Of a stretch of 44,720 nucleotides of DNA, positions 2,282 through 44,720 are shown in pieces. The stretch comes from a virus, in IMG/VR virus record IMGVR_UViG_3300033388_005222, positions 1 through 44,720 of that record; one strand, written 5' to 3'. The notes below the pieces were generated by a model. It ran no database searches. It was not told where the DNA came from and saw only the letters and a program-made list of their open reading frames with translations. The first letter of the stretch is position 1. Every line of letters starts with the position of its first letter. Position numbers and translations under genes: made by a program.

Positions 2282-2807
2282 CGAGATTTGACAAGACCTT
2301 TAGCTTTACATCAAATAGAGAGACCAAATCCCCGACATTAGAACCAAAGCCCAGCTCTATGAGGGCGGTGGGCTGCCTAAACGCAGATAAAACCGCGTGT
2401 GAATCCCCCCACAGCTCGGGCGTTGCCCATCGGGCCCCGTCATAGCGTTTCAAGGGTGATGGCATAGCCGATGATATACTCTCACAGATTGATTTCATAG
2501 CTCGGTTGCCCGGGTAGGCCAGGCAAAGAGCCCCGTGCCAAGACCGATTGGCACTTGAGTTGACGTGTAGACTAAAAACGTGTGTTGCACCCCCTGAGTC
2601 TGCGATAGCGGCCCGCTCCGCAAAGCTTAGTGTTTTGTCATCAGAGCGGATTAAAAACGTCTCCACGCCGCAGGCTTCGGACATTTCCTGCAACAAGAGC
2701 CCACGCTCTAGCACATAATCTTTTTCCAACACGTCTCCAACGTCGCAGCCGTGGTTCGTGCCACCGTGGCCAAGGTCAAAAGCTAGGACTACTTTGGGGG
2801 TGCTCAT
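2253..2807 (-). CDS. N-acetylmuramoyl-L-alanine amidase endolysin (Amidase_3-like)
   Basis: This 184-aa protein likely cleaves the MurNAc-L-Ala bond of peptidoglycan as the phage endolysin. The N-terminus has the Amidase_3 zinc motif (AFDLGHGG), later SLHVNSS contains the second conserved histidine, and IELGFGSN near the C-terminus matches the catalytic-glutamate motif of the family. The start at 2807 is chosen because its ATG overlaps the upstream stop (ATGA). A 47-residue extension to 2948 lies wholly inside the neighbouring gene and has no motif. There is no signal peptide, so release probably depends on a holin. It is the last gene of the late operon. Confidence 0.85.
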   Translation of the reverse strand: MSTPKVVLAFDLGHGGTNHGCDVGDVLEKDYVLERGLLLQEMSEACGVETFLIRSDDKTLSFAERAAIADSGGATHVFSLHVNSSANRSWHGALCLAYPGNRAMKSICESISSAMPSPLKRYDGARWATPELWGDSHAVLSAFRQPTALIELGFGSNVGDLVSLFDVKLKVLSNLAICAGAVRL

Positions 2808-3343
2808 TTCGCAAGCTCCGCAGATGAGGCCCCACCGATACGCACACCGGCGTAGTTTGCTTTCCGGCGTAAAGTGCGCAAAAGGCCCTTGAAGCCTAGC
2901 CACCGGCGCACAAAAAAGCCCGGGTCTTTGGGTTGGTACATCGGCCAAGACACGGCCAGCACGTCGCTATAGAGGCAATCAAACCACTTGCGGCACCGGT
3001 CATGGTTTTTTAGCACGCGGTCTTGTATGCAATTAGGGACGGGTTGCCCGATGGCCCCCGCCTTGAGCATTTCATAACCCCCATCGTGAAGAGCAGAGGC
3101 TAGCAGGTTCCGCATATCGTCAAAGGTCGGGCCCGACGGGTCAAAGAGCATACCCTTATGTAGGGTCAAGACACCTTCGGGGCTGATAGAGGCTCCCAAG
3201 GTGCCTACGAGGTGAATCGGGCGCAACTCGGTCGGAAACTCGAAGTCTTTTGTAACACGGTACTTGCCCTTGCCTTTTGTGCCGTTAACCTTTTCAAAGT
3301 GCAGGCCATGCACCACAAAAGAGTTTTCTAAATCGTAGTGCAT
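2804..3343 (-). CDS. DUF1353-family protein in lysis region
   Basis: This 179-aa protein has a central motif (DPSGPTFDDMRNLLASALHDGGYEM) that resembles the DUF1353 signature in which a D-x-S/A-x-P stretch is followed by a conserved ALHD. This family is common beside phage lysis and tail genes; its biochemical role is unproven. I prefer ATG at 3343, with GGGAG five bases upstream, over an in-frame GTG at 3349. It overlaps the amidase start by 4 nt. Confidence 0.7.
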   Translation of the reverse strand: MHYDLENSFVVHGLHFEKVNGTKGKGKYRVTKDFEFPTELRPIHLVGTLGASISPEGVLTLHKGMLFDPSGPTFDDMRNLLASALHDGGYEMLKAGAIGQPVPNCIQDRVLKNHDRCRKWFDCLYSDVLAVSWPMYQPKDPGFFVRRWLGFKGLLRTLRRKANYAGVRIGGASSAELAK

Positions 3344-19612: not shown

Positions 19613-20746
19613 TTACGCTGCGGGTTTGGTCTCCCACGCTTCAGCGTTGCGCTTAATCATCTTGGCCCGGGCATCCTCACTATCGAGGCGAGTGCCACCG
19701 GCTGCGGCTGCGGCTGCCTGAGAAGCTGCAAGGGAGGCGTCGGTTTTCTGGGTAGCCCCATCACAGATGGCGTCAAAGCGGCCTTGAATGTAGCCCTCCG
19801 ACTTGTCCGCAAGGTCCGCATCTTTCGAATCGTTGCGGATAACCTGAGACATAATTTCAAGGCTGGCCCCCTCGATTTTGGTGTCTTTGGGTAGTGCGGC
19901 CTTGGCAGACTCAACCAGCTTGATACGAGCTGCAACCTTCGAATCGATGCGGGTTTCGTCAGTGGCTTCGGCCAAATCTTTCTTGGCTTTCTCAAGCTGA
20001 GGCGTCATAGCATCAACACGACCTTTCAGGGTGTCCCGCTCCGCTTCAATCACGGAAAGGGCCGAATCCGCCCGGACCTTGTTTTGCTCAATAGCTTCGG
20101 CCACGTTGGCCTCAACGTCGAATGTAATGCCATCAATTTTGATTTTCATCTTTTCACCTTGGCCTTTATCGGCCCGTATTTCGGGTATGACTTCGGACCC
20201 GTTAGAATCTAGTCTAAGTGCGACTTCAGAGCCCGCCCTATTCCAATCCTTGGGGCCTAGTGCAACGTGATTATAAATTATGTCGGTCTGGATTTGGTCA
20301 TAAGGGCCAAAAGTCTCATGTACACCGGGGGTGGCATCTACCCGGCAAGTATAGCCGGGGGAAATCTCGACCAAACTTCCGGCGTCGATTTGGGCTATGG
20401 TGTTGGGGTCTGTTACAGTCACAAAGCCATCCAGCCGGGTTTTGTTGCCCCCGCTTTCGTCTGCGATGAAGCCCACGCCGAACTCTTTAGCATTCGAAGG
20501 GCCCACAAGCACCTTGCGGCCCATCACCGATGGATGGTCTACAGTTAAGAGAGCCCCCCGTAGTGTAGCTATAGAGTCGGTTTTAAAAAGCTCTTTTTTG
20601 GTGCGTAGCTCTCGAATAACGCCACCTTCTGGCGTGGTGTACTTCAAAATGCCCTCAGCCCCAAAAGTCGCAGGGACACGCAAAAAACCCGCGCTGGTCT
20701 TTGTGGCTTTACCCATTCGAGAAAAATCAAACCTGGTAACTCGCAT
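19613..20746 (-). CDS. Prohead protease fused to scaffold (DUF2213 family)
   Basis: This 377-aa protein would process the capsid during assembly. The N-terminal ~190 residues carry the DUF2213 pattern (GFLRVPATFGAEGILKY, RGALLTVDHPSVMG, DGFVTVTDP, VEISPGYTC). Residues about 200-300 form a charged coiled-coil-rich scaffold region and the C-terminus is Ala-rich and basic. The likely catalytic histidine is in the VDHP motif, by family analogy. It is the first gene downstream of the 20.75-21.07 kb regulatory gap, in which I see no convincing minus-strand promoter. Confidence 0.8.
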   Translation of the reverse strand: MRVTRFDFSRMGKATKTSAGFLRVPATFGAEGILKYTTPEGGVIRELRTKKELFKTDSIATLRGALLTVDHPSVMGRKVLVGPSNAKEFGVGFIADESGGNKTRLDGFVTVTDPNTIAQIDAGSLVEISPGYTCRVDATPGVHETFGPYDQIQTDIIYNHVALGPKDWNRAGSEVALRLDSNGSEVIPEIRADKGQGEKMKIKIDGITFDVEANVAEAIEQNKVRADSALSVIEAERDTLKGRVDAMTPQLEKAKKDLAEATDETRIDSKVAARIKLVESAKAALPKDTKIEGASLEIMSQVIRNDSKDADLADKSEGYIQGRFDAICDGATQKTDASLAASQAAAAAAGGTRLDSEDARAKMIKRNAEAWETKPAA

Positions 20747-20784
20747 ATCAAGACCCTAGCAAAGATTTTGTGTAAAGCAAGCCT

Positions 20785-20865
20785 AAAAGTACTTTTTATT
20801 TTAGAAAGGTCTCTTTTCCCTTGCTTATAAATATACGTTGTGTTTATACTTGGGTTTATAAGCAA
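20785..20865 (+). promoter_or_regulatory. Diverged copy of the phage promoter/operator unit with 11-bp inverted repeat
   Basis: AAAAGTACTTTT (20785-20796) is followed 25 bases later by TTGCTT (20821-20826), an 18-base spacer containing ATAAATATAC, and TATACT (20845-20850). The segment 20821-20865 is bounded by a perfect inverted repeat, TTGCTTATAAA and TTTATAAGCAA, separated by 23 bases. The unit is a partial duplicate of 20960-21023, sharing the flank GCCTAAAAGTACTTTT. Downstream, AAGGGG and an ATG at 20888 open a five-codon frame only, perhaps the stub of a lost gene. Minus-strand activity toward the protease gene is possible but unclear. Confidence 0.55.
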
Positions 20866-20959
20866 ACTTCAACCTAAGGGGCCTGCTATGCATATTCTTA
20901 AATAATTACACGCTGTAAACCTCGCCTGATACCCACCCCCTAAAAATCAGCTTAAGCCT

Positions 20960-21023
20960 AAAAGTACTTTTATTTTAAAAAGGGGGTTTTAGGGGTTGTG
21001 TATAAATATACAAGGTGTATATT
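20960..21023 (+). promoter_or_regulatory. Conserved phage promoter P1 (upstream of 21066 gene)
   Basis: The perfect 12-bp palindrome AAAAGTACTTTT (20960-20971) is followed by TTGTGT (20996-21001), a 16-base spacer carrying GTATAAATATAC across its left edge, and TATATT (21018-21023). The same arrangement recurs at 30463, 32133, 34163 and 43661. It directs transcription of the single plus-strand gene at 21066. Confidence 0.8.
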
Positions 21024-21065
21024 AAGAACATAGACAAAGCGGCAACGCACAACAAAGGAAAGACG

Positions 21066-21341
21066 ATGACAACGACAATCAAAATCAGCAAATCAGAACT
21101 ACAGGCAGCGATGAACAGCGCGAGCAAATGCGGATTCATGCAGGCAGAGGGGCATGCGATCTCGTTATCCCATGTGGGGAATATTGCGACTACCGAGCAG
21201 GGCGCAACGGATATGAGTCAATACGCCGTCGAGCTGATGAATCTCGAAAATCGCGCAGAGCCTGAACTATCGGCGATGGATTTTGGGGTTATTTCAGAAA
21301 ATGCAGAGGATTGCGGCTTTGATATTGAGTGGGTAGCGTAA
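21066..21341 (+). CDS. Moron-like gene inside late operon, unknown function
   Basis: This 91-aa acidic protein begins MTTTIKISKSELQAAMN; no family is recognised. AAAGGA lies 6 bases before the ATG. It is the only plus-strand gene in the 24-kb minus-strand virion block, with its own promoter (20996-21023) and a hairpin just after it. Its alanine codons are mostly GCG/GCA, whereas neighbours strongly prefer GCC. It holds the only GATC I found in the window (21158-21161). These point to recent acquisition. Candidate roles are host takeover, superinfection exclusion or anti-defence; none can be shown from sequence. Confidence 0.7.
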   Translation: MTTTIKISKSELQAAMNSASKCGFMQAEGHAISLSHVGNIATTEQGATDMSQYAVELMNLENRAEPELSAMDFGVISENAEDCGFDIEWVA

Positions 21342-21354
21342 ATAGCTCAGCCCG

Positions 21355-21378
21355 AGGGCCCGGCTTCGGTCGGGCCCT
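21355..21378. terminator. GC-rich hairpin with UUCG loop, probable terminator
   Basis: AGGGCCCG (21355-21362) pairs with CGGGCCCT (21371-21378), and an inner C-G pair closes a TTCG tetraloop. It lies 14 bases after the stop of the 21066 gene and overlaps the stop codon of the convergent minor head gene. No T-run follows on either strand, so termination may be weak or factor-assisted. Confidence 0.6.
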
Positions 21379-22369
21379 AATTCAGCACGCTGCTAGCAGC
21401 CTCTAGCCATCCTGCGGGCATCACGGGGATGGCATTACACCGACATTGATAATCCCCACCAGGGTGGGCATATCTTACGCCTCCCTTTCCAAACGCTACC
21501 GCCGGGGGGTCGCTCCACTTTTGCGTAGTGCCATCTAGCTCTTGATGCGTGGGTCTAACACGCTCGTCTTTGGATGAATCCCAGATATACTCATCAATCC
21601 CCGCATTTACTTGCCTCAGCTCTGTTAGCTCACCTTGCAGCTTGCCAACTTGGTCCCGTGCTATCAGAGCCGCGCGGCTCTTAGACAGGCCAAAGCTTGC
21701 CCGCAAATTCTTAGCTATGGTCTCGTTTCTGAGGCCACCCCGCAGGCCCTCTAAAATCTGAGCCTCTGCCCTGTCGAGGGCTTGGGCCCGTACTGACTTT
21801 ATGAGAGAGGCATTTTGACGTACAAACGCATCTGAGACGGGCCCTAAATAGGCCTCTTGGGATAGCAGAGGCAGCCCGGCAACGCCTACGCCTTCGGATA
21901 CGCCTGCAAGGCTAGAGCCCTGCACACCTAGCATAGAAGCAAATTGGGCGGAGGTCTGCTTTTTATGGGACGTATTGACACCCTCCCACACCGAAGCCGC
22001 AAGAGTTTCGGCTGTTACAGTGGGGCCGGGGGGTGTTAGCGTGGCACGGGTCGTCGTGGTACTAACAGCCGTGGGGCCTGAGCCTGCCCACTCCGCCGTT
22101 GTACCCTCAAGGTCCTCGAAAGTGGCGTGCAGGAAGTCCAAAGAGCTATCCCGCCTTATCCCACGCTCATCCTGGTAGGCCTCTATGAGAGCAGCCCCGC
22201 CGGTTTTCCACTCAGATAAAACCTGAGCTTGCACCGTGGCTAACATACGCATAAGGGCCCGATGGTATTTGAGCCTTTCAGCGTTGGGCCATAAAATGGC
22301 CTTCGTGGCTTGCCGGGGCTTGCGTCTTGCCCCGGTAAAAGCCCGGCGTATTTGGGCCTCTGAGGGCAT
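21377..22369 (-). CDS. Minor head / head morphogenesis protein (Mu gpF / SPP1 gp7-like)
   Basis: This is a 330-aa protein. The C-terminal half carries the Phage_Mu_F signature: SRAALIARDQVGKLQGEL, then IWDSSKDERVRPTHQELDGT, and HPGGDYQCRCNAIPV, with the paired cysteines of the CRC motif. A few copies normally sit inside the head near the portal. The stop codon TAG lies within the hairpin that ends the opposing gene. It starts at the portal stop with a one-base overlap. Confidence 0.85.
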   Translation of the reverse strand: MPSEAQIRRAFTGARRKPRQATKAILWPNAERLKYHRALMRMLATVQAQVLSEWKTGGAALIEAYQDERGIRRDSSLDFLHATFEDLEGTTAEWAGSGPTAVSTTTTRATLTPPGPTVTAETLAASVWEGVNTSHKKQTSAQFASMLGVQGSSLAGVSEGVGVAGLPLLSQEAYLGPVSDAFVRQNASLIKSVRAQALDRAEAQILEGLRGGLRNETIAKNLRASFGLSKSRAALIARDQVGKLQGELTELRQVNAGIDEYIWDSSKDERVRPTHQELDGTTQKWSDPPAVAFGKGGVRYAHPGGDYQCRCNAIPVMPAGWLEAASSVLN

Positions 22370-28882: not shown

Positions 28883-29911
28883 ATGCAACCCTTTAACGTA
28901 CTTAGTCTTTTTGATGGAATATCCGGGGGCCAAATAGCCCTGGAAAAAGCCGGGATTGAGGCCACCAACTATCTGGCGAGTGAGATAGATAGAAGGGCAA
29001 TCGAGGTAACACAGGCGAATTTTCCGGATACAATACAAATCGGGGATGTTAAAGATGTGGATATCCCCCCGGACGTCAATATAGATTTAATAATGGGGGG
29101 TTCCCCCTGCCAGTCTTTCTCTTTTGCCGGCAATCGAAAGGGTATGGCAACCTCCTGCGACATTGAGATAACAAACCTGGACCAATATCTGGAGCTAAAA
29201 GCTGAGGGCTTCGAGTTTCAAGGTCAATCCTATCTATTTTGGGAGTATGTCCGGCTTTGTTACCAAGTGAATCCTAAATATTTCCTACTCGAGAACGTCA
29301 GAATGGCCAAAAAATGGGAGAAAATTATTAGTGATACTTTGGGAGTAGAGCCTATTTATATAGACTCTAACACCAAATCAGGCCAAAACCGTAAGAGGTT
29401 GTATTGGACGAATATCCCTGTAAACAGGGAAGCCTTTAGAGACCCTAGCCCCACCAAAATCCGGGATATATTGGAAGATTCAGATTGTGACTTTGCAGAA
29501 ACCACCCTCCTGGATTTTGACAGCTCAAAAAGGATAATAAAAGAGCACTTCAAAACGGGCCATCTAGATGGCCACCTGGCGGATTGCATATTCACAGAGA
29601 GATTTTTCAAGAAAAAAATAGGCACCCTTGCCTATAAAAAAGCCCTTTCCCAGCTCAAAAGCCTTGAGCACAAGTCGAATTGCCTCACAACTTCCGGCCA
29701 AAATATCGCTAATAGTGGGTCTACAAATATCTTCTACATAAATCTCGAGGGCAAATTGAAAATCAGGCCCTTGAACCCTACAGAATGTGAGAGGCTGCAA
29801 ACCGTCCCGGAGGGGTATACCGACCATTGTTCACGCAACCTAAGGATTTCGATGCTGGGCAACGGTTGGACGATTGATGTCATAGCTGAGATTTTGAGAG
29901 GAATAAAATGA
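28883..29911 (+). CDS. DNA (cytosine-5) methyltransferase, orphan
   Basis: This 342-aa protein contains the conserved C5-MTase motifs in order: SLFDGISGGQIAL (I), GGSPCQSFSFAG with catalytic Cys76 (IV), LLENVRM (VI), QNRKRLYW (VIII), RPLNPTECERLQTVPEGYT (IX) and LGNGWTIDV (X). An insertion of about 30 residues lies between motifs IV and VI (about 90-120). The target recognition region is short. No restriction endonuclease is nearby, so it most likely protects phage DNA from host restriction. The recognition sequence cannot be read from sequence. Confidence 0.9.
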   Translation: MQPFNVLSLFDGISGGQIALEKAGIEATNYLASEIDRRAIEVTQANFPDTIQIGDVKDVDIPPDVNIDLIMGGSPCQSFSFAGNRKGMATSCDIEITNLDQYLELKAEGFEFQGQSYLFWEYVRLCYQVNPKYFLLENVRMAKKWEKIISDTLGVEPIYIDSNTKSGQNRKRLYWTNIPVNREAFRDPSPTKIRDILEDSDCDFAETTLLDFDSSKRIIKEHFKTGHLDGHLADCIFTERFFKKKIGTLAYKKALSQLKSLEHKSNCLTTSGQNIANSGSTNIFYINLEGKLKIRPLNPTECERLQTVPEGYTDHCSRNLRISMLGNGWTIDVIAEILRGIK

Positions 29912-30186: not shown

Positions 30187-30464
30187 AAAGCCAAGCTAAA
30201 GAGCGCCTAAAGCTGGCGGTAATGACCCTTGACGCCATGAAAGAAGACATAGCAGCCCAAAGGAACCACCTAGGGCTAGACCCCGTTACAGGAGAGACCC
30301 GTATCTTAAGCCGACTTCAAGAAGAAATGAGGGACTTACCTGAAGTCGAAGACAAAGTAGGGGCTACGGTGGCCATTGCATGGAGCCTAGCGGCCTTCTA
30401 CGACTCCCCAAAAGCCATGCAGGCCGTGTATCATATGGGGGTCGTGCACGGCCTTTTAATGTAA
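30183..30464 (+). CDS. Helical hypothetical protein, tandem paralogue B
   Basis: This 93-aa paralogue of the preceding gene is coupled to it by an ATGA overlap. The shared skeleton is M-K-x-QAK-x-x-LKLA at the start and A-x-x-x-G-x-x-x-GLL at the end. Its stop codon lies at the edge of the AAAAGTACTTTT palindrome of the next promoter. Function unknown. Confidence 0.7.
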   Translation: MKSQAKERLKLAVMTLDAMKEDIAAQRNHLGLDPVTGETRILSRLQEEMRDLPEVEDKVGATVAIAWSLAAFYDSPKAMQAVYHMGVVHGLLM

Positions 30465-30517
30465 AAGTACTTTTATTTACGATTAGGGGTTGTGTATAAA
30501 TATACAGGGTGTATAAC
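30463..30517 (+). promoter_or_regulatory. Conserved phage promoter P2
   Basis: The palindrome AAAAGTACTTTT occupies 30463-30474. TTGTGT (30490-30495), a 16-base spacer and TATAAC (30512-30517) follow, with the GTATA-AA-TATAC palindrome overlapping the -35 edge and spacer. AGAACAT follows the -10. Directs the 30547 gene. Confidence 0.85.
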
Positions 30518-30546
30518 TAGAACATACCCAAACGGAGCTAAACACC

Positions 30547-30846
30547 ATGAGCCTAGAAATCACAAACACAATCAGAAACCAAATTGGAAGCCGCGCCCTT
30601 TACATGTTAGGTGCGCAAAAATTGGGTGGGCATAAATCAGGTTTTTCTTTTCGCTTTCGTGGTTGCCAGACTCTGAATCATTGCAAAATCACGCTGAACA
30701 GCCTTGATACCTACGATATGGAATTCTGCAAGATTGGCCGCGCTCCCCATTTCAAAATCAGCAACAAGATTGAGAAGCCCGGGCTTTATGCTGACATGCT
30801 GCACAAGGCCATAGAGCAGGCTACAGGCCTTTACACCTCACTCTAA
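30547..30846 (+). CDS. Conserved small phage protein (99 aa), unknown function
   Basis: This 99-aa protein has the pattern I-x-NQIGSRALYMLGA, then GFSFRFRG, LDTYDMEF and a C-terminal TGLYTSL. I recognise this as a frequent small phage protein without known function. It is the first gene after promoter P2 and is preceded by a GGAG ribosome site. A 24-base segment at 30587-30610 recurs in another reading frame at the end of the gene at 32543. Confidence 0.75.
   Translation: MSLEITNTIRNQIGSRALYMLGAQKLGGHKSGFSFRFRGCQTLNHCKITLNSLDTYDMEFCKIGRAPHFKISNKIEKPGLYADMLHKAIEQATGLYTSL
30587..30610 (+). repeat. 24-bp exact repeat, copy 1
   Basis: The segment starting GAAGCCGCGCCC and ending ACATGTTAG is identical at 30587-30610 and 32867-32890. 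Here it encodes SRALYML; in the second copy the frame differs and it encodes EAAPFTC plus the stop codon. Confidence 0.9.
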
Positions 30847-30858
30847 CCGAAAAACCCA

Positions 30859-30878
30859 GCCCCGGAGCTATCCGGGGC
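30859..30878 (+). terminator. Hairpin between 30846 and 30902, weak terminator or mRNA structure
   Basis: GCCCCGGA (30859-30866) pairs with TCCGGGGC (30871-30878) around a GCTA loop. No T-run follows; the ribosome site of the next gene (GGAG, 30891-30894) is close. It may limit readthrough or protect mRNA ends. Confidence 0.5.
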
Positions 30879-30901: not shown

Positions 30902-31279
30902 ATGATTAAAGAACAATGGCTTCAAGACCTCAAAGCGGGCGATTTGGTAATTATTGCCCGATATGGGTACCGAACCCAAAGCCGTGCAATTCTCAAAATC
31001 ACCCGCACAACGCCCACGCTAATCCTGATAGGGGAGAAACCTAATCAGGACAAGTACACACGCTCCCGAGGTGTGCCGCCCGGAAAATCCGAGGATAGGT
31101 CCCGCAGAAGCCGCTTACAGGAGCCCACCCCGGAGGCGCTAGCTCAAGTCGTGGCCGAAAACCTCAAGAAAAGGCTCTCATGCACCCTCAGCGTTGAGAA
31201 TTGGTCAACCCATAGCCTTAAAACCCTCGAAGCCGTGGCCATCGCCGCCGGGCTCCACAAGGAAGAAAACCATGATTGA
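30902..31279 (+). CDS. Small-beta-domain protein (LKAGDLV family), copy 1
   Basis: This is a 125-aa protein. The N-terminal WLQDLKAGDLVI followed by LKITRTTPTLILIG resembles an SH3/KOW-like small beta barrel. A Ser/Arg/Lys-rich middle and a helical end (SLKTLEAVAIAAGL) follow. The genes at 31272 and 32543 share the same architecture. Binding to a nucleic acid or protein is possible but unshown. It ends overlapping the next start by 8 nt. Confidence 0.65.
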   Translation: MIKEQWLQDLKAGDLVIIARYGYRTQSRAILKITRTTPTLILIGEKPNQDKYTRSRGVPPGKSEDRSRRSRLQEPTPEALAQVVAENLKKRLSCTLSVENWSTHSLKTLEAVAIAAGLHKEENHD

Positions 31280-32174
31280 AAAGACAGCCCATCAACTCGA
31301 AGTAGAAGAAAAAAGAAACGCCTGGCTTCAAGACCTCAAAGCGGGCGATTTGGTAATCGTTGTGGAGCCCTTGCGGGATAGCCACCCCTTTGAAATAAAA
31401 CTCATAGAGGACGGTGGAATCTATCTAGGCTTTGGTCACGGCACCGCCGCATTTTCCCAAAAAACCGGTATGGGTCAAGGGTTCTTTGGCACCAATCCCC
31501 GCCCTTATTTGGAGGAAGCCACACCCAAAGCCCTTGCAGCTATCAAGGCCCCCCCTGTACCTTGGATGAGGCCCCATAACACCCCAGCGACACAAAACCC
31601 CGGACGTGGCCTCGCGGCACTGGCAGCCGCAGCCATACTCAAAAAGGAGAACACCGTGGGAAGCACCCTCCCCGCAATCAATACACTACTTGACCGCGAA
31701 GAATCCAAAACTAAGGCCGAAGCCCTCAAGGCACTTTTACAGGCCGTCGATACTTACCAGGAGGCTTGTGCCCCGAAGCCTGAACCCGAGCCGGAGCCCG
31801 AGCCCTTGAAGTGGACCCCACCCCCGGGGGACTTCACAATCCTAAGTGATTGCACCCTCACAGGGCAGAAATTGACAGCGGGGGACGAATACCGCCTTGC
31901 AGGCTGTGAGCGGTATCAAGAGGATACCACCAAAAGGGACGCCGCAGAGCAGCTACAAGGCCAACTCTTGCGCGCCCGCCGGGCGGAGCTTTGCCCGGAC
32001 TACGTTCCCGACTTTTCAACGTTAGATAAAAAGTGCCATCATATGCAGCTAGGTACGGGGGAGTGGGATATGGATTACAACGTGGAGTGGAAAACCCCCG
32101 GCGTGGTCTATTTCCCAGAGGCCGAAGCCCGGAAAGTACTTTCTGAATTGCAAAGCGGGTTTTTGAGCATTTAG
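31272..32174 (+). CDS. Small-beta-domain protein (LKAGDLV family), extended copy 2
   Basis: This is a 300-aa protein. ATG at 31272 (MIEKTAHQLEVEEKRN) lies 8 nt inside the previous gene; an extension to 31194 is out of place inside that gene. Residues about 19-30 repeat the WLQDLKAGDLVI module, encoded by a 35-bp segment identical to one in the upstream gene. The rest is unlike it: an Ala-rich helix, a Pro-Glu repeat (PEPEPEPEP, about 184-192) and a C-terminal domain containing DFTILSDCTLTGQKLTAGD. It looks like a duplicated module fused to a second protein. Function unknown. Confidence 0.65.
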   Translation: MIEKTAHQLEVEEKRNAWLQDLKAGDLVIVVEPLRDSHPFEIKLIEDGGIYLGFGHGTAAFSQKTGMGQGFFGTNPRPYLEEATPKALAAIKAPPVPWMRPHNTPATQNPGRGLAALAAAAILKKENTVGSTLPAINTLLDREESKTKAEALKALLQAVDTYQEACAPKPEPEPEPEPLKWTPPPGDFTILSDCTLTGQKLTAGDEYRLAGCERYQEDTTKRDAAEQLQGQLLRARRAELCPDYVPDFSTLDKKCHHMQLGTGEWDMDYNVEWKTPGVVYFPEAEARKVLSELQSGFLSI

Positions 32175-32205
32175 GGCTTGTGTATAATTATACAGGGTGT
32201 ATATT
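32133..32205 (+). promoter_or_regulatory. Conserved phage promoter P3
   Basis: AAAGTACTTT lies at 32133-32142. TTGTGT (32178-32183), a 16-base spacer and TATATT (32200-32205) follow. In this copy the spacer palindrome GTATAATTATAC is perfect. The -10 ends 6 bases before the ATG at 32212, so the transcript is probably leaderless. Confidence 0.8.
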
Positions 32206-32542: not shown

Positions 32543-32890
32543 ATGGAATTCTTAGAGAAAATCAAGAAAGGTGACAAGGTCGTCTATAACTACAACGGGC
32601 CCTCAATCTGCAAGGTTTTGCGCACTACGAAAACTCTCGTATGCATAGAACTTAAGAATCACATGGGGAGCAAATATGAAAGCCGCTTTCGAAAGAGTGA
32701 CGGGGAGGGGCTGGACTCCCGCCACGCCTACTTAACAGAGGCCACCGACGACCGCAAAAAGGAAATCTCCAGAGCAGGCCAAAGGGGGGAGCTAATCCGG
32801 CGCATACGAAAAGTGCGGCTTGAGGCGATATCCGTTGAAGCCCTTGAAGCCGTGGCCGATATTTTAGAAGCCGCGCCCTTTACATGTTAG
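32543..32890 (+). CDS. Small-beta-domain protein (LKAGDLV family), copy 3
   Basis: This is a 115-aa protein. FLEKIKKGDKVV and VLRTTKTLVCIE parallel WLQDLKAGDLVI and ITRTTPTLILIG of the 30902 protein, and SVEALEAVADILEAA parallels its helical end. An AAAGGA site lies 8 bases before ATG 32543. The last eight codons, including the stop, are made from a 24-bp repeat of the 30547 gene read in another frame, suggesting a recombination-generated C-terminus. Confidence 0.7.
   Translation: MEFLEKIKKGDKVVYNYNGPSICKVLRTTKTLVCIELKNHMGSKYESRFRKSDGEGLDSRHAYLTEATDDRKKEISRAGQRGELIRRIRKVRLEAISVEALEAVADILEAAPFTC
32867..32890 (+). repeat. 24-bp exact repeat, copy 2
   Basis: Identical to 30587-30610. It provides the last residues EAAPFTC and the TAG stop of the 32543 gene. 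Confidence 0.9.
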
Positions 32891-32933
32891 CTTCGGAATT
32901 TATCAGCTCTGATGAGCGTCTAAAGGAAAAATA

Positions 32934-33942: not shown

Positions 33943-34182
33943 ATGCAACTCGAAACCCTGGCCATACTTAATGACCTCAAAGAAACCAACAAAGCCGCCG
34001 TAAACGTCCAGCGACTTGCTGAGAACATGCGCAAGCAAGGCCTGAAAGCTCGTAGCGTCTACCTCCGGGGTATGCTTATAGGGGCCTCCGCCGGACTTTT
34101 TGGCTTGGCTAATGCTCTTTTTGATGTGGCCGAAAAGCTCAAGGCTGAAATAAAAGAGACCGAAAGTACTTCTAAGGGCTGA
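33943..34182 (+). CDS. Small hypothetical protein (79 aa)
   Basis: This is a mostly helical, basic N-terminal half with a less polar Gly/Ala stretch (residues about 44-60, GMLIGASAGLFGLANALF) that could be a membrane helix. The P4 AAAGTACTT element lies inside its last codons. Function unknown. Confidence 0.6.
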   Translation: MQLETLAILNDLKETNKAAVNVQRLAENMRKQGLKARSVYLRGMLIGASAGLFGLANALFDVAEKLKAEIKETESTSKG

Positions 34183-34217
34183 TTAGGGGTTGTGTATAAA
34201 TATACAGGGTGTATAAC
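34163..34217 (+). promoter_or_regulatory. Conserved phage promoter P4
   Basis: AAAGTACTT lies at 34163-34171. TTGTGT (34190-34195), a 16-base spacer with the GTATA-AA-TATAC palindrome, and TATAAC (34212-34217) follow. It is nearly identical to P2, including the preceding GATTAGGGG. Drives the 34247 cluster. Confidence 0.85.
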
Positions 34218-34246: not shown

Positions 34247-34528
34247 ATGACAGACCCAAAAGAGCCCGACACAGAGGCCCTGAAGATTACCTTCGACGCG
34301 GCAGAGGTTACGGAGTGCATCCAGAGCACGAAGGCCCAACGACTACAAGAGGGCCTTTCAGAGCTTAAACCGTCCGAAGCACTTGCGACCTTCAAACATA
34401 TGCTGGATACCTGTGCGCCCGGGGCCCTGCTGATAACCGAAACCGGGCTAGAAATCACCCTCGAAGACCATTCAATCCTTGGGCACTATTTGTGCGGGGC
34501 GAGAATGGGGGAGTATTACGTAAAATGA
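34247..34528 (+). CDS. Hypothetical acidic protein (93 aa)
   Basis: This is the first gene after promoter P4, with GGAG upstream of the start. The protein is acidic and helical in its first two thirds (MTDPKEPDTEALKITFD), followed by a short beta-like end. No family is recognised. Confidence 0.65.
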   Translation: MTDPKEPDTEALKITFDAAEVTECIQSTKAQRLQEGLSELKPSEALATFKHMLDTCAPGALLITETGLEITLEDHSILGHYLCGARMGEYYVK

Positions 34529-34972: not shown

Positions 34973-35565
34973 AACCAGAAGAGAAACACCTTGACCCCGC
35001 AACCCTTCGTTGGGTGGCCGATAACGTACCCGGCGAGCCCTCTTGGATTGCCCTTAGGGGTTTTGCAACTGGCCTTAGAGACTTGGCCGCAGAAATTGCC
35101 ACCGCCCGCAAAACGGACTTGGAGACCGCCGAAGATTTACAAAAGGGTTTTCTCCCGTGCCCCCTCACGGTGTTGGGTGTCCTGCCCGATTGCCCCCTAC
35201 CCGAAGGCTTCAAGGTCGTGGGCATTGTGCATGATGAAGGCTTCAAGGTCGTGGGCATTGTGCATGATGAAGTGCTCCTAGAGGGGCTAAAACCTCTAAC
35301 CAAAAAGGCCCGGCGGGAGCTTAAAGAGAACCTTTTCGGCGGCCCGGGGAATATGCTAGCCGCCGCTCCGGAGGGGGCCAACGTGCCATCACCAACAGTA
35401 AAGAGGCCGTTGATTCAGGGGGAAATAAAAGACTATGCACCCCCTGAAGATTTCAAGGTGGGTGGCGGACCAGAGCCTGAGCCCACAGAAACCCCCTGTG
35501 ATGAATGCGGCGAAGCTGTGCCCATCAAGTATTACCTGTGCCGTACCTGTGGACAAGAACAATGA
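34969..35565 (+). CDS. Hypothetical protein with C-terminal zinc ribbon
   Basis: This is a 198-aa protein. A helical N-terminus is followed by an 11-residue module repeated exactly in tandem (EGFKVVGIVHD twice, residues about 79-100), a Pro/Glu-rich linker and a four-cysteine C-terminus (CDECGEAVPIKYYLCRTCG), a probable zinc ribbon. The ribbon suggests binding to nucleic acid or to the nuclease encoded next. The stop overlaps the nuclease start. Confidence 0.65.
   Translation: MKPEEKHLDPATLRWVADNVPGEPSWIALRGFATGLRDLAAEIATARKTDLETAEDLQKGFLPCPLTVLGVLPDCPLPEGFKVVGIVHDEGFKVVGIVHDEVLLEGLKPLTKKARRELKENLFGGPGNMLAAAPEGANVPSPTVKRPLIQGEIKDYAPPEDFKVGGGPEPEPTETPCDECGEAVPIKYYLCRTCGQEQ
35203..35268 (+). 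repeat. 33-bp perfect tandem duplication in coding sequence
   Basis: 35203-35235 is repeated exactly at 35236-35268, adding 11 residues in frame (EGFKVVGIVHD). The perfect identity suggests a recent duplication or an assembly/strain variant. Confidence 0.95.
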
Positions 35566-39781: not shown

Positions 39782-39811
39782 AGAAAAGGGGGCCCACGTG
39801 CCCCCTTTTCT
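39782..39811 (+). terminator. Rho-independent terminator between SSB-like and polymerase genes
   Basis: AGAAAAGGGGGC (39782-39793) pairs perfectly with GCCCCCTTTTCT (39800-39811) around a CCACGT loop. The stem contains the A- and T-runs, so it can act in either direction. The polymerase start follows 14 bases later, so most polymerase transcripts must read through. Confidence 0.85.
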
Positions 39812-41718: not shown

Positions 41719-42194
41719 TTCTATCAATAGACCCCGGAGTGCATAAAACGGCTTGGGCCCTGTGGGGCAAAGATGGGCTACAAGAGGCAGGGTACCACGG
41801 AACCGACGCCGTGGGGAGGTTTTTCCCAGAGTATGGAACCCACCTTTTTGTTACTGTGGAAGTCCCCCAAATCTATAAACACTCAAAGGGGGACCCTCAA
41901 GACCTTATAAATCTAGCCTTTGCAGCGGGGCAAGCCTCTGGGAATAGGGCAATCTTTAAGGTGGACCCCAAAAAGTGGAAGGGGCAGGCCCCGAAAACTA
42001 AAAAGCTCGAAGATTATCTTATCCACAAATGGAACCTGAGAGCCCTAGAGGACGCAGAGCAAGGCGTTTATTTACAGGCCCTTTCAGGTATAGCGGCCTC
42101 TTTAAGGCACAATATCGCCGACGCCGTAGGCATAGGCCTTTGGAAACTACAAAGGGGGCATTACGCCCGGGGGCTTCAAAATGCCAAGCCCTGA
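41715..42194 (+). CDS. RuvC-like Holliday junction resolvase
   Basis: This is a 159-aa protein. MILSIDPGVHKTAWALW carries the first catalytic Asp (D6), VTVEVPQ the Glu (E49), and HNIADAVGIGLW the last Asp (D136), the RNase H-like layout of RuvC. It would resolve branched DNA before packaging. It overlaps the polymerase stop by 4 nt. Confidence 0.85.
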   Translation: MILSIDPGVHKTAWALWGKDGLQEAGYHGTDAVGRFFPEYGTHLFVTVEVPQIYKHSKGDPQDLINLAFAAGQASGNRAIFKVDPKKWKGQAPKTKKLEDYLIHKWNLRALEDAEQGVYLQALSGIAASLRHNIADAVGIGLWKLQRGHYARGLQNAKP

Positions 42195-42375
42195 TAATAG
42201 GATTATGGCAGAGCTTACACAAGTTCTACATTATGGGGCTTGGACGGTTGAGGAGCTGGCAACGCTTTTTCAAATGCCAAAAAGAAGGGTATATTATTAC
42301 CTCGTGGCCGTAAAAAGGACACCTTTAGATTTGGTTCGTACTAATAAAGGGTACGAAATCCGCCGGGCGGGTTGA
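42181..42375 (+). CDS. Small helix-turn-helix protein (64 aa)
   Basis: WTVEELATLFQMPKRRVYYYLVAVKR is a helix-turn-helix pattern. ATG 42181 lies within the resolvase end; an alternative ATG at 42205 gives 56 aa. It may be a regulator acting with the Xre protein encoded next. Operator unknown. Confidence 0.65.
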   Translation: MPSPDNRIMAELTQVLHYGAWTVEELATLFQMPKRRVYYYLVAVKRTPLDLVRTNKGYEIRRAG

Positions 42376-42407: not shown

Positions 42408-42644
42408 ATGACTATTGGAAAAAGAAAGCTAAACGAAGCTCTAGCCCGTAAGGGCTGGACTTTGGCCCAAGCCGCCGAAGCCCTTGACACGGCCTCAGAG
42501 GGCGGGGCCATTAGGACCCAGAATGTTATGTTTTGGCGAAAAGGCCGCCGTACCCCCACCCTAGCGCAAGCCGTTGCGCTGCAAAACGTTTTTGGCATAA
42601 GCCCCAAGGCGTGGTTCAAAAAGGACGAAGAAAATGAGACTTAA
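42408..42644 (+). CDS. Xre/Cro-type helix-turn-helix regulator
   Basis: This is a 78-aa protein. MTIGKRKLNEALARKGWTLAQAAEALDT, then FWRKGRRTPTLAQAVALQNVFGI is the Xre HTH layout. With its own promoter and leaderless-type start it may be an early regulator, perhaps binding the promoter palindromes. No integrase or lytic/lysogenic switch partner is visible. It overlaps the next gene by 11 nt. Confidence 0.75.
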   Translation: MTIGKRKLNEALARKGWTLAQAAEALDTASEGGAIRTQNVMFWRKGRRTPTLAQAVALQNVFGISPKAWFKKDEENET

Positions 42645-43689
42645 AAGACGAAAGCCGGGCGCTACCTATCCTCTGGATGTTTGCGCTGTGTCGAAGTGCC
42701 CCCACCCTACCCTGGTTGTGGTGGGTGAAGGGGTCTCTTTCCCCGCAGAAAAGGGAGAAGTACCTCTCTGCGACTTACACCACGCCGAAGACCAAGGCCA
42801 AACGGCCACGCTAGTAACCCCGGAGGGCTTGCAAGAGACCCCCCCGCCCACCTATGCAGGCCTGAGCCTTAAACCTTTAGCACAGGGTGGACGGTACCTT
42901 GTGGACGTTTGTGCTGTGTCGGAGTGCTATGCCCCCATGGGTATCGTGCTAACTGCTGGGGCTTTCTTTCCGCTTGATAAGGGAGTAATCCCACTTTGTT
43001 GGCCCCATGATTTTGAGGCACAGCACCTTGCTTTGGGCTTACAGGAGACGGCCCCCGCAGCTTTAGAGCTACCGCCCCCGGAGGTTATCCCCACCGAAGA
43101 AATCCCATCCCCGGAGGCTATGGCGCTTGAAAAAGCGGAATTCGCCAAAGAGGAGCTTGTAGGGATTAAGTCTCTTGAGATTGACAGCCAAGAGGATTTG
43201 GATTTCGCAAACGAAATCTTGGCCGAAGTCAAAAAGAAATTCAAGGAAATCGATGCCGAAGAAAAAGGTGTAACCCAGCCCATTAATGCCTCTTTAAAGA
43301 AAATCCGGGATTGGTTCCGGCCCGCAAAAACAGCATACACCGAAGCTGAAAAGATTCTAAAGAGCAAGATTCTCGCAGGTATCGAAGCGATTCAGGCCCG
43401 ACAAGATGCCGCGCTTTTAGCCCTGCAAGAGGCCCACAAAGAGCAGAACGTAGCTGCAACGGCTTCGGCTTTGGCCGTGGTGCAAGAGTCGGCCATAGAG
43501 CAGCCCTCCAATGTCTCAGTGATTAAAAAATGGGCTTATCGGGTTGTGGATTTTGCCCTAGTGCCCCGGGAGTATTGTGCCCCCTCCCCTGAGCTTTTGA
43601 AGGCCGCCGTTAAGGCCTCCGATGGTACGATTAAAATCCCCGGGGTTGAGATTTTCGAAGAAAGTACTTTATCCCAAAGAAAATTATAA
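42634..43689 (+). CDS. Hypothetical protein: duplicated Cys/His domains plus phage coiled-coil domain
   Basis: This is a 351-aa protein. Two N-terminal copies of a roughly 45-residue module (YPLDVCAVSKC...PLCDLHH at about 12-50, and YLVDVCAVSEC...PLCWPHD at about 88-128) keep C-x4-C and C-x2-H and may bind zinc. Residues about 170-260 are coiled coil (EILAEVKKKFKEID, PAKTAYTEAEKIL). The C-terminus (VPREYCAP, then IPGVEIFEE) matches a common phage protein of unknown function often linked to recombination genes. The promoter P5 element lies in its last codons. Confidence 0.65.
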   Translation: MRLKRRKPGATYPLDVCAVSKCPHPTLVVVGEGVSFPAEKGEVPLCDLHHAEDQGQTATLVTPEGLQETPPPTYAGLSLKPLAQGGRYLVDVCAVSECYAPMGIVLTAGAFFPLDKGVIPLCWPHDFEAQHLALGLQETAPAALELPPPEVIPTEEIPSPEAMALEKAEFAKEELVGIKSLEIDSQEDLDFANEILAEVKKKFKEIDAEEKGVTQPINASLKKIRDWFRPAKTAYTEAEKILKSKILAGIEAIQARQDAALLALQEAHKEQNVAATASALAVVQESAIEQPSNVSVIKKWAYRVVDFALVPREYCAPSPELLKAAVKASDGTIKIPGVEIFEESTLSQRKL

Positions 43690-43734
43690 AATAAAGGCTC
43701 TGGGGGTTGTGTATAAATATACAGGGTGTATAAA
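43661..43734 (+). promoter_or_regulatory. Conserved phage promoter P5
   Basis: AAAGTACTTT lies at 43661-43670 inside the end of the preceding gene. TTGTGT (43707-43712), a 16-base spacer with the GTATA-AA-TATAC palindrome, and TATAAA (43729-43734) follow. Drives the 43768-to-2281 cluster across the contig junction. Confidence 0.85.
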
Positions 43735-43767: not shown

Positions 43768-43998
43768 ATGCCTGAACACAATACAAACCCCCTAACAAAG
43801 AATAACGTCACCGGCATTTTGGGCGCTATAGGTTGCATCCCTGACTTTCAAGAAGTCTCACAGGGCTGGACGCGGGTGTTCATCCACGAACCTCAGGAAA
43901 AAGGGCTGAATGTGACGAGGGCGGGGATGAGAGGCTATCCTGCTTTGCTGCTACTCTCGAAAGCTGCGGGGGTGCGCTATGAAAACCGAATTTTTTAA
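43768..43998 (+). CDS. Small hypothetical protein (76 aa)
   Basis: This is the first gene after promoter P5, with CGGAG upstream of ATG 43768. The protein starts MPEHNTNPLTKNN and contains a short beta-like centre (GWTRVFIHE). It overlaps the next gene by 20 nt. No family is recognised. Confidence 0.65.
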   Translation: MPEHNTNPLTKNNVTGILGAIGCIPDFQEVSQGWTRVFIHEPQEKGLNVTRAGMRGYPALLLLSKAAGVRYENRIF

Positions 43999-44293
43999 AG
44001 GTTGGATGCGGCCCGAAGACTTCCCCCCGCAAGAGGGCATATCATACCAGATAGTGGTGGAGGGTTTGGGGGAGGGGCCAACGTGCAAAATACTGAGGGA
44101 CTTCAAGTACTATATAGGAGAGAATGTTTTTGTGTCCGATATACAAACAGAGAGTGCTAAAAGCATCTTAGGCTATAAAGTGCAGTCACCTTTTGAGTAT
44201 GAGGTGAGTGATTTCGAATTTCTAGAGCCCGATATCGATTGGCGTAAAACGGTGGAGGCTCAAAAGCGCCACGTCTGCGGGGGTGAGCTATGA
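43979..44293 (+). CDS. RPEDF-family small protein, copy 1
   Basis: This is a 104-aa protein. GWMRPEDFPPQEGISYQ near the N-terminus is shared with the next gene, followed by a related pattern (YY-x-x-x-NVF, then GYK, FEFLEPDIDW). Copy 1 is shorter than copy 2 and ends without its cysteine-rich tail. It overlaps its neighbour by 4 nt (ATGA). Function unknown; probably a small beta domain. Confidence 0.7.
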   Translation: MKTEFFKGWMRPEDFPPQEGISYQIVVEGLGEGPTCKILRDFKYYIGENVFVSDIQTESAKSILGYKVQSPFEYEVSDFEFLEPDIDWRKTVEAQKRHVCGGEL

Positions 44294-44720
44294 AAACCGA
44301 ATTTTTTAAGGGCTGGATGAGGCCCGAAGACTTCCCCCCGCAAGAGGGGTTATTATATCAGCTTATTGCAGAGGTTCCGGGTACGGGCTACGAGTTAGAG
44401 CGGGATTGCAACTACTACAAAGCCCGCAACGTTTTCGAGTCAGAAGTCAGAACCCTAGCCCCATCAAAAGTCCTTGGGTATAAAGCCCAAGAGGGGGCAT
44501 ACCACAAAAAAGAGGCCTTCGAATTCCTAGAGCCCTCTATTGATTGGACAGAAACCGTGAGGGCCCAGAGGTGCCCTGTATGTGAAACCGTTTTGATTCT
44601 GGACGTGTCTGCTCTGTATGTGGCTTGCAACGATGCGGACTGCTTCCAAGGGGCTGCAAAAAGCTCAAAAAAAGAAGCCGTAGAGGCCGCCGAAAAGCTT
44701 TTAGGCCGTAAATTTGAGAG
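44290..44720 (+). CDS. RPEDF-family small protein, copy 2 (5' part; ends at 127)
   Basis: Starts MKTEFFKGWMRPEDFPPQ, nearly identical to copy 1 at the first 20 codons, and keeps the FLEPSIDW motif. It then continues with a four-cysteine tail (CPVC, then C-x5-C across the junction) that may bind zinc. The frame continues at base 2 of the window and stops at 127, giving about 180 aa. It is the middle member of three tandem genes. Confidence 0.75.
   Translation, partial: MKTEFFKGWMRPEDFPPQEGLLYQLIAEVPGTGYELERDCNYYKARNVFESEVRTLAPSKVLGYKAQEGAYHKKEAFEFLEPSIDWTETVRAQRCPVCETVLILDVSALYVACNDADCFQGAAKSSKKEAVEAAEKLLGRKFE
44607..44720. repeat. Right copy of 114-bp terminal direct repeat
   Basis: Identical to bases 1-114. 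It lies wholly within the coding sequence of the junction-spanning gene, so it is not an intergenic end structure. Confidence 0.95.

Follow-up and report, generated by a model that had tools for sequence, protein, structure and literature searches.

A small, apparently foreign gene behind a copy of a phage's own palindrome-promoter module in the virion operon

What is a single small gene doing on the opposite strand in the middle of a phage virion operon, and under whose signals would it be expressed? The question is raised by the window analysed here, an entire phage record that is 44,720 bases long and carries a 114-base direct repeat at both ends. A leftward block encodes terminase, portal, minor head protein, protease, cement, major capsid, sheath, tape measure, baseplate and endolysin, and is faced by a rightward one that holds replication and small genes. 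Searches of the window for tyrosine integrase and resolvase domains were negative (the same searches were positive in 14/14 and 10/14 control genomes), which makes lysogenic conversion by the inserted gene unlikely; the phage is a contractile-tailed virus, and probably a non-temperate one. The reading that we favour, with moderate confidence, is recent capture of a small foreign gene, which came to lie behind one of the copies of a two-part regulatory module native to the phage.

Within the late block, most neighbouring genes touch or overlap. The interval from the protease start (20746) to the minor head stop (21377) measures 630 nt, the largest of 28 late-block gaps (the next is 356 nt), and holds one good ORF, on the strand opposite to the virion genes (Table 1). 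The original prediction had described an opposite-strand 91-aa gene interrupting the protease/minor head junction, equipped with its own ribosome site, promoter and UUCG-loop hairpin. All of these were located: the ORF between neighbours identified by Pfam and PHROG matches, an AAAGGAA upstream of its ATG, a copy of a six-copy module that would act as promoter, as judged at the sequence level, and a hairpin with a cUUCGg loop. The in-frame coding score of the ORF (0.176) is matched by none of 1465 off-frame windows from phage genes and is within the values seen for small genes of the phage itself, so that the ORF is probably a real gene. The functional element could instead be an RNA or a double promoter rather than a protein, for example a leader or antisense RNA tuning the protease and minor head genes. 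The orientation opposite to the virion operon, the presence of two modules in tandem and the strong hairpin, whose base overlaps the minor head stop codon, would suit such an element, but the ribosome site of the ORF, a coding score that no off-frame window reaches and the absence of any Rfam match in the window make it highly improbable.

Table 1. Positions of the inserted unit, its neighbours and the other module copies in the window.
Feature	Position	Strand	Remark
Head maturation protease (left neighbour)	19613-20746	-	phrog_530 3.8e-74; DUF2213 7.3e-25
Degenerate first module copy (AAAAGTACTTTT, then TTGCTTATAAATATAC)	20779-20848	+	Promoter core with 2 mismatches
Five-codon mini-ORF (MHILK, stop)	20888-20905	+	Behind ribosome-site-like AAGGGG
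Palindrome AAAAGTACTTTT, probable activator/operator site	20960-20971		Contains the 8-mer found six times
Conserved promoter block (TTGTGTATAAATATAC...GTGTATAT)	20996-21022	+	Inner inverted repeat GTATA-AA-TATAC
Shine-Dalgarno-like AAAGGAA	21054-21060	+	Ends five bases before the ATG of the 91-aa ORF
Cargo gene, 91 aa	21066 (ATG)-21341 (TAA)	+	Orphan acidic protein (pI 4.2, net charge about -10)
Sole GATC of the genome	21158-21161		Inside the 91-aa ORF
Hairpin, cUUCGg loop, 3' end of cassette	21355-21378	+	-22.9 kcal/mol, z -3.16
Minor head protein, Mu F-like (right neighbour)	21377-22369	-	PF04233 2.6e-20; phrog_324 3.7e-54
Palindrome-promoter module of sister cassette	30463-30516	+	
Sister cassette gene, 99 aa	30547-30846	+	phrog_9437 (8.2e-17)
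Hairpin closing sister cassette	30859-30878	+	58-nt stretch folds to -21.9 kcal/mol
Further palindrome-promoter module	32132-32204	+	
Further palindrome-promoter module	34162-34216	+	
Further palindrome-promoter module	43660-43733	+	

The composition of the 91-aa ORF sets it apart from the rest of the genome. In a third-order word model, with each tested window left out of its own model, the ORF is the least typical stretch: none of 1894 windows of 276 nt scores as low (z -4.4), and three do so when GATC is skipped. The upstream part of the insert is ordinary phage DNA (z -0.66), and the sister gene described below and three other promoter-proximal genes have z values between 0 and -1.2. Words avoided by the phage also crowd the ORF (38 vs a mean of 16.8, a level reached by 8/1909 windows), although the windows of both counts overlap and the counts are therefore not independent tests. 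Codon use agrees with the originally reported preference for GCG and GCA over the GCC of the neighbouring genes: 11 of the 12 Ala codons are GCG (six) or GCA (five) and one is GCC, a codon whose share elsewhere is 0.43-0.50, and a score this low is seen in only 11 of 4000 90-codon windows. The deviation is much stronger in the 5' half of the ORF than in its 3' half, which counts against capture of a foreign gene. A near-normal 3' half fits a native, fast-evolving gene, e.g., a regulator, whose odd composition arose by chance in a short ORF; its length of only 276 nt, its native promoter and a coding score within the range of the phage's small genes fit that explanation as well. We nevertheless consider it unlikely, given how few windows are as atypical with or without GATC, the presence in the gene of the sole GATC of a purged genome, and the failure to find the gene in relatives.

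That single GATC, at 21158, had been noticed originally, and its isolation is pronounced: one copy in 44,720 bases compares with a mean of 115.8 in shuffles and 123 under a Markov model, and at the unselected rate 0.7 would be expected in the 91-aa ORF. Its near-elimination fits restriction avoidance, which has been described as strongest in non-temperate phages (PMC6286503). Foreign word use and the sole GATC inside the ORF, next to an ordinary upstream flank, are most simply read as an ORF that arrived after the GATC purge and whose promoter did not come along, which would make it recently arrived cargo of foreign origin inside a regulatory shell native to the phage. This nearly GATC-free genome encodes a C5-cytosine DNA methyltransferase at 28883-29911 (PF00145, TIGR00675, phrog_116). 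CTGCAG and GAGCTC each occur zero times in it, against about 19 and 15 expected from a Markov model.

The claim that the gene uses the phage's own regulon promoter is supported by the distribution of the promoter core. With up to three mismatches, TTGTGTATAAATATAC has six matches against 0.19 expected, and none of 100 shuffles reaches six; all six cores lie on the + strand, four of them exact, one with one mismatch and one with two. Repeat analysis recovered 50 aligned bases of 76-86% identity around five of the six. A second promoter element, beyond what was originally described, is a palindrome: the genome has six copies of the 8-mer AAGTACTT, one upstream of each core, and three of the six palindromes are located inside the ends of upstream ORFs. 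The palindrome core AAAGTACTT starts 26, 27, 35, 35, 45 and 46 bases before the promoter. These distances step by about one helical turn (a beat of 9.5-10 bp; phasing P about 0.014, if distances are assumed to be drawn from 20-60 and the duplicated pair is counted once), as expected of an activator that touches polymerase from one face. Two helix-turn-helix-like proteins encoded at 42181-42375 and 42408-42644 are candidate binders of the AAAGTACTTT palindrome or of the promoter's inner inverted repeat; their pairing with the palindrome is a guess. A plain sigma-70 promoter for the 91-aa gene was sought and discarded: a strict scan called no promoter in 20700-21450, which counts against the favoured reading, and the promoter may thus need another factor.

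The insert itself holds two modules in tandem, as the first copy has 72% gapless identity to 20954-21022. The mini-ORF behind that first copy may be the stub or scar of a lost cargo, or a leader peptide. Apart from the modules of the 91-aa gene and its sister, three other strong copies appear to head operons, and the company of genes that share the module suggests 'early' expression of the 91-aa gene. Several other repeats were seen in the genome. A 35-nt repeat (89%; 30584-30618 and 32864-32898) links two genes near module copies in different frames and is a possible recombination scar. Repeats of 40 nt (95%; 30917-30956 and 31323-31362) and 107 nt (84%, direct; 43964-44070 and 44275-44381) mark apparent tandem paralogues, the former in neighbouring small genes and the latter in the gene at 43979-44293 and one running from about 44290 towards the record end. 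A perfect 33-nt tandem duplication at 35203-35268 lies inside coding sequence (GFKVVGIVHDE twice).

A sister unit of the same build, i.e., promoter, gene and hairpin, occupies 30462-30878 and spans 417 bases, compared with 420 for the unit of the 91-aa gene. The window contains five strong GC-rich hairpins, and each of the two single genes that stand behind a module copy is followed by one of them (P about 3.5e-5, assuming random hairpin placement, in a test framed after the hairpins had been seen). The hairpin of the 91-aa gene is strong but has no T-run and received zero terminator-like calls, a further point against the favoured reading. Since neither cassette hairpin has a T-run, both may protect RNA or halt polymerase in a host-specific manner. 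Distant relatives of the sister gene occur in three plasmids and in three phage records that represent two phages; the genomic surroundings of two plasmid relatives offered no hint of function. Elsewhere in the genome, a strong 11-bp hairpin (AGAAAAGGGGG/CCCCCTTTTCT, 39782-39811) lies just 5' of the DNA polymerase gene and is terminator-like in both directions.

The same junction was compared in 139 sequences, i.e., the window and 138 loci (L007-L144), a set that includes overlapping records of one contig (e.g., L014/L020 and L016/L025) and near-identical pairs (L021/L022). Relatives were found with two-row and five-row portal alignments; single-sequence scans with portal, minor head protein and MCP gave no match, and PolA gave one weak relative. 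Both genes lie on the locus + strand in 67 sequences, of which five are rearranged and were left out (L007, with the genes on the minus strand, was also dropped), leaving 62 junctions, window included, in which the two genes follow each other in order over no more than 2.6 kb. The gap between minor head and protease, whose length rests on estimated starts, is at most 50 nt in 13/62, 51-299 nt in 22/62 and at least 300 nt in 27/62. The TerL-portal gap is wide in 18/71, so that the excess at the minor head-protease junction is only moderate, which counts against the favoured reading; gaps between portal and minor head are inflated, because conservation of the minor head protein is largely confined to its end. 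The minor head-protease junction is a favoured, not a unique, insertion site. Among 54 ORFs picked mechanically from the 27 wide junctions there are three related pairs, none of which includes the 91-aa protein of the window.

For an acquired moron tied into the regulon of the phage, the original prediction expected variable cargo with a constant promoter at this junction, and a gene conserved in place with matching codon use would have spoken against it. Junction contents proved mostly unrelated, the gene was not found in relatives and its codon and word use are mismatched. Several traits by which a moron is recognized are present: neighbours that adjoin in relatives and stand 630 nt apart here, a different insert or none at the same place, a putative promoter of its own, and a composition unlike that of the phage. 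In the Synechococcus phage S-CBS4, an opposite-strand ORF annotated as a repressor lies just before the protease. One related virus contig (L017) carries in this junction a 152-aa ORF (2778-3236) with a lipobox-like N-terminus, as judged by eye. Small membrane-protein-like ORFs, similar by eye, sit beside the protease at 7457-7804 of L028 and 40215-40457 of L007; their orientation with respect to the virion genes differs between the two. Of the named relatives found, L007 (MW202816), a circular myovirus from Manatee Spring, is the closest, with 32-36% identity in portal, protease and MCP and 28-34% in PolA; its minor head gene has moved. The promoter's inner repeat is present in none of L007-L019, the 27-base promoter has no exact match in viral contigs, and no relative with the same promoter was found.

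The product of the gene is an orphan by every search applied. A tblastn search against phages and plasmids (E up to 1) and exact-peptide scans of viral and genome contigs, which reach close relatives only, returned no relative, and none was seen in 13 virus records. Searches of whole genomes gave 0/10, 1/398 and 2/385 hits at E values of 0.006-0.007 per genome, as expected by chance at a limit of 0.01. Pfam, PHROGs, PADLOC (whose models describe defence, not counter-defence) and PDB sequences yielded no match, and an NCBIfam match at E 0.026 was dismissed as meaningless. Kinship with the protein encoded at 34247-34528, suspected by eye, was not borne out by any BLASTP alignment. Single-sequence structure prediction, which had been suggested originally, gave a pLDDT of 37 and no usable fold, and the sequence databases searched gave no match to a known inhibitor. 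Among the 18 small + strand proteins examined, it has the highest acidity per residue (-0.113). Acidity is common to other small proteins here (34247, 43979), making it weak evidence of function and a point against the favoured reading.

A small, acidic, newly acquired protein behind a non-virion promoter suits an inhibitor of host defence, but also a host-manipulating factor. The originally proposed anti-defence or superinfection function is a guess; we hold inhibition of a host defence to be possible but doubtful, and a literature search for small acidic anti-CRISPR cargo returned nothing. The other candidate, of about the same standing, is a moron like Pid of the Salmonella phage P22 that would act on a host gene or host physiology, unrelated to defence. 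In anatomy, pid is the closest described case: it encodes an 86-aa orphan, is oriented against the surrounding late genes, has a 3' terminator and occupies a site that is empty or differently filled in relatives (PMC3573128). A small orphan antisense to the late genes, a variable site and a stable 3' structure make the two nearly the same. However, P22 is temperate and Pid expression was seen in carrier cells (PMC3573128), whereas the present phage shows no integrase or resolvase domain and its hairpin lacks a T-run. The repeated phage-wide promoter module, sister cassette and GATC purge seen here are likewise not mentioned for pid in the parts of that account available (PMC3573128).

For repeated promoter-hairpin elements tied to gene shuffling, the nearest cases are elements of T4-type phages and motifs of the archaeal virus HGTV-1. 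In T4-type phages, PeSL mobile regulatory cassettes combine a repeated early-type promoter and a stem-loop beside small exchangeable genes, and recombination between promoter copies offers a route of shuffling (PMC4503421). The present phage shares the repetition, with six promoter copies and a hairpin behind two of the genes. It differs in that the promoter sequence is another, the phage is unrelated, the copies number only six and the hairpin comes at the end of the gene; an inverted repeat immediately before the promoter occurs, among the selected stretches examined, only at the sister cassette (30421-30454, composite 30421-30516). In the tailed virus HGTV-1, a motif precedes the majority of ORFs on one genome side (PMC3950731); the likeness is by description, not by sequence, and HGTV-1, unlike the phage here, infects archaea. 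No prior description of a GATC purge used as a clock, of cargo at this junction or of the palindrome was found in search listings of the open-access literature. What is new relative to the described cases is the clean split between native shell and foreign gene.

The insertion, the repeated module, the foreign composition and the sister unit are all evident from sequence, and the favoured reading would connect them as follows. A small foreign gene would have been captured behind a module copy, at a junction that is empty or unrelated in relatives, to form a unit of promoter, ribosome site, one gene and hairpin that lies backwards in the virion operon. A phage-encoded activator would probably bind the palindrome, whose helical phase relative to the promoter is roughly constant among the copies, and the gene would be expressed along with the non-virion genes (early or middle). 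Late in infection it may be damped as transcription of the virion operon runs through it in antisense. The acidic product might, more tentatively, counter a host function, most likely a defence, e.g., as a DNA-mimic-type inhibitor.

A broader proposal, which we advance only tentatively, is that the native shell of operator-promoter, ribosome site and hairpin (about 420 bp) serves as an expression dock, copied from place to place in the genome and filled with single foreign genes. Any cargo so loaded would at once come under the phage's own activator, and recombination between module copies would swap it. The duplicated module and five-codon stub (20779-20905) would then be the scar of an earlier cargo, and the GATC-purged genome would serve as a clock that dates each arrival.

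Phages gain genes for counter-defence and host control fast, and how the expression of a newcomer comes to be correctly timed is seldom visible. Here the newcomer is distinguishable from its native control shell, since only the gene has foreign word use and only the gene carries a site lost from the rest of the genome. If cargo is indeed loaded into a standard shell, searching for the module would lead to other shells, whose contents would be candidate host-interaction genes. The locus thereby suggests a way for phages to plug in and control new weapons or tools.
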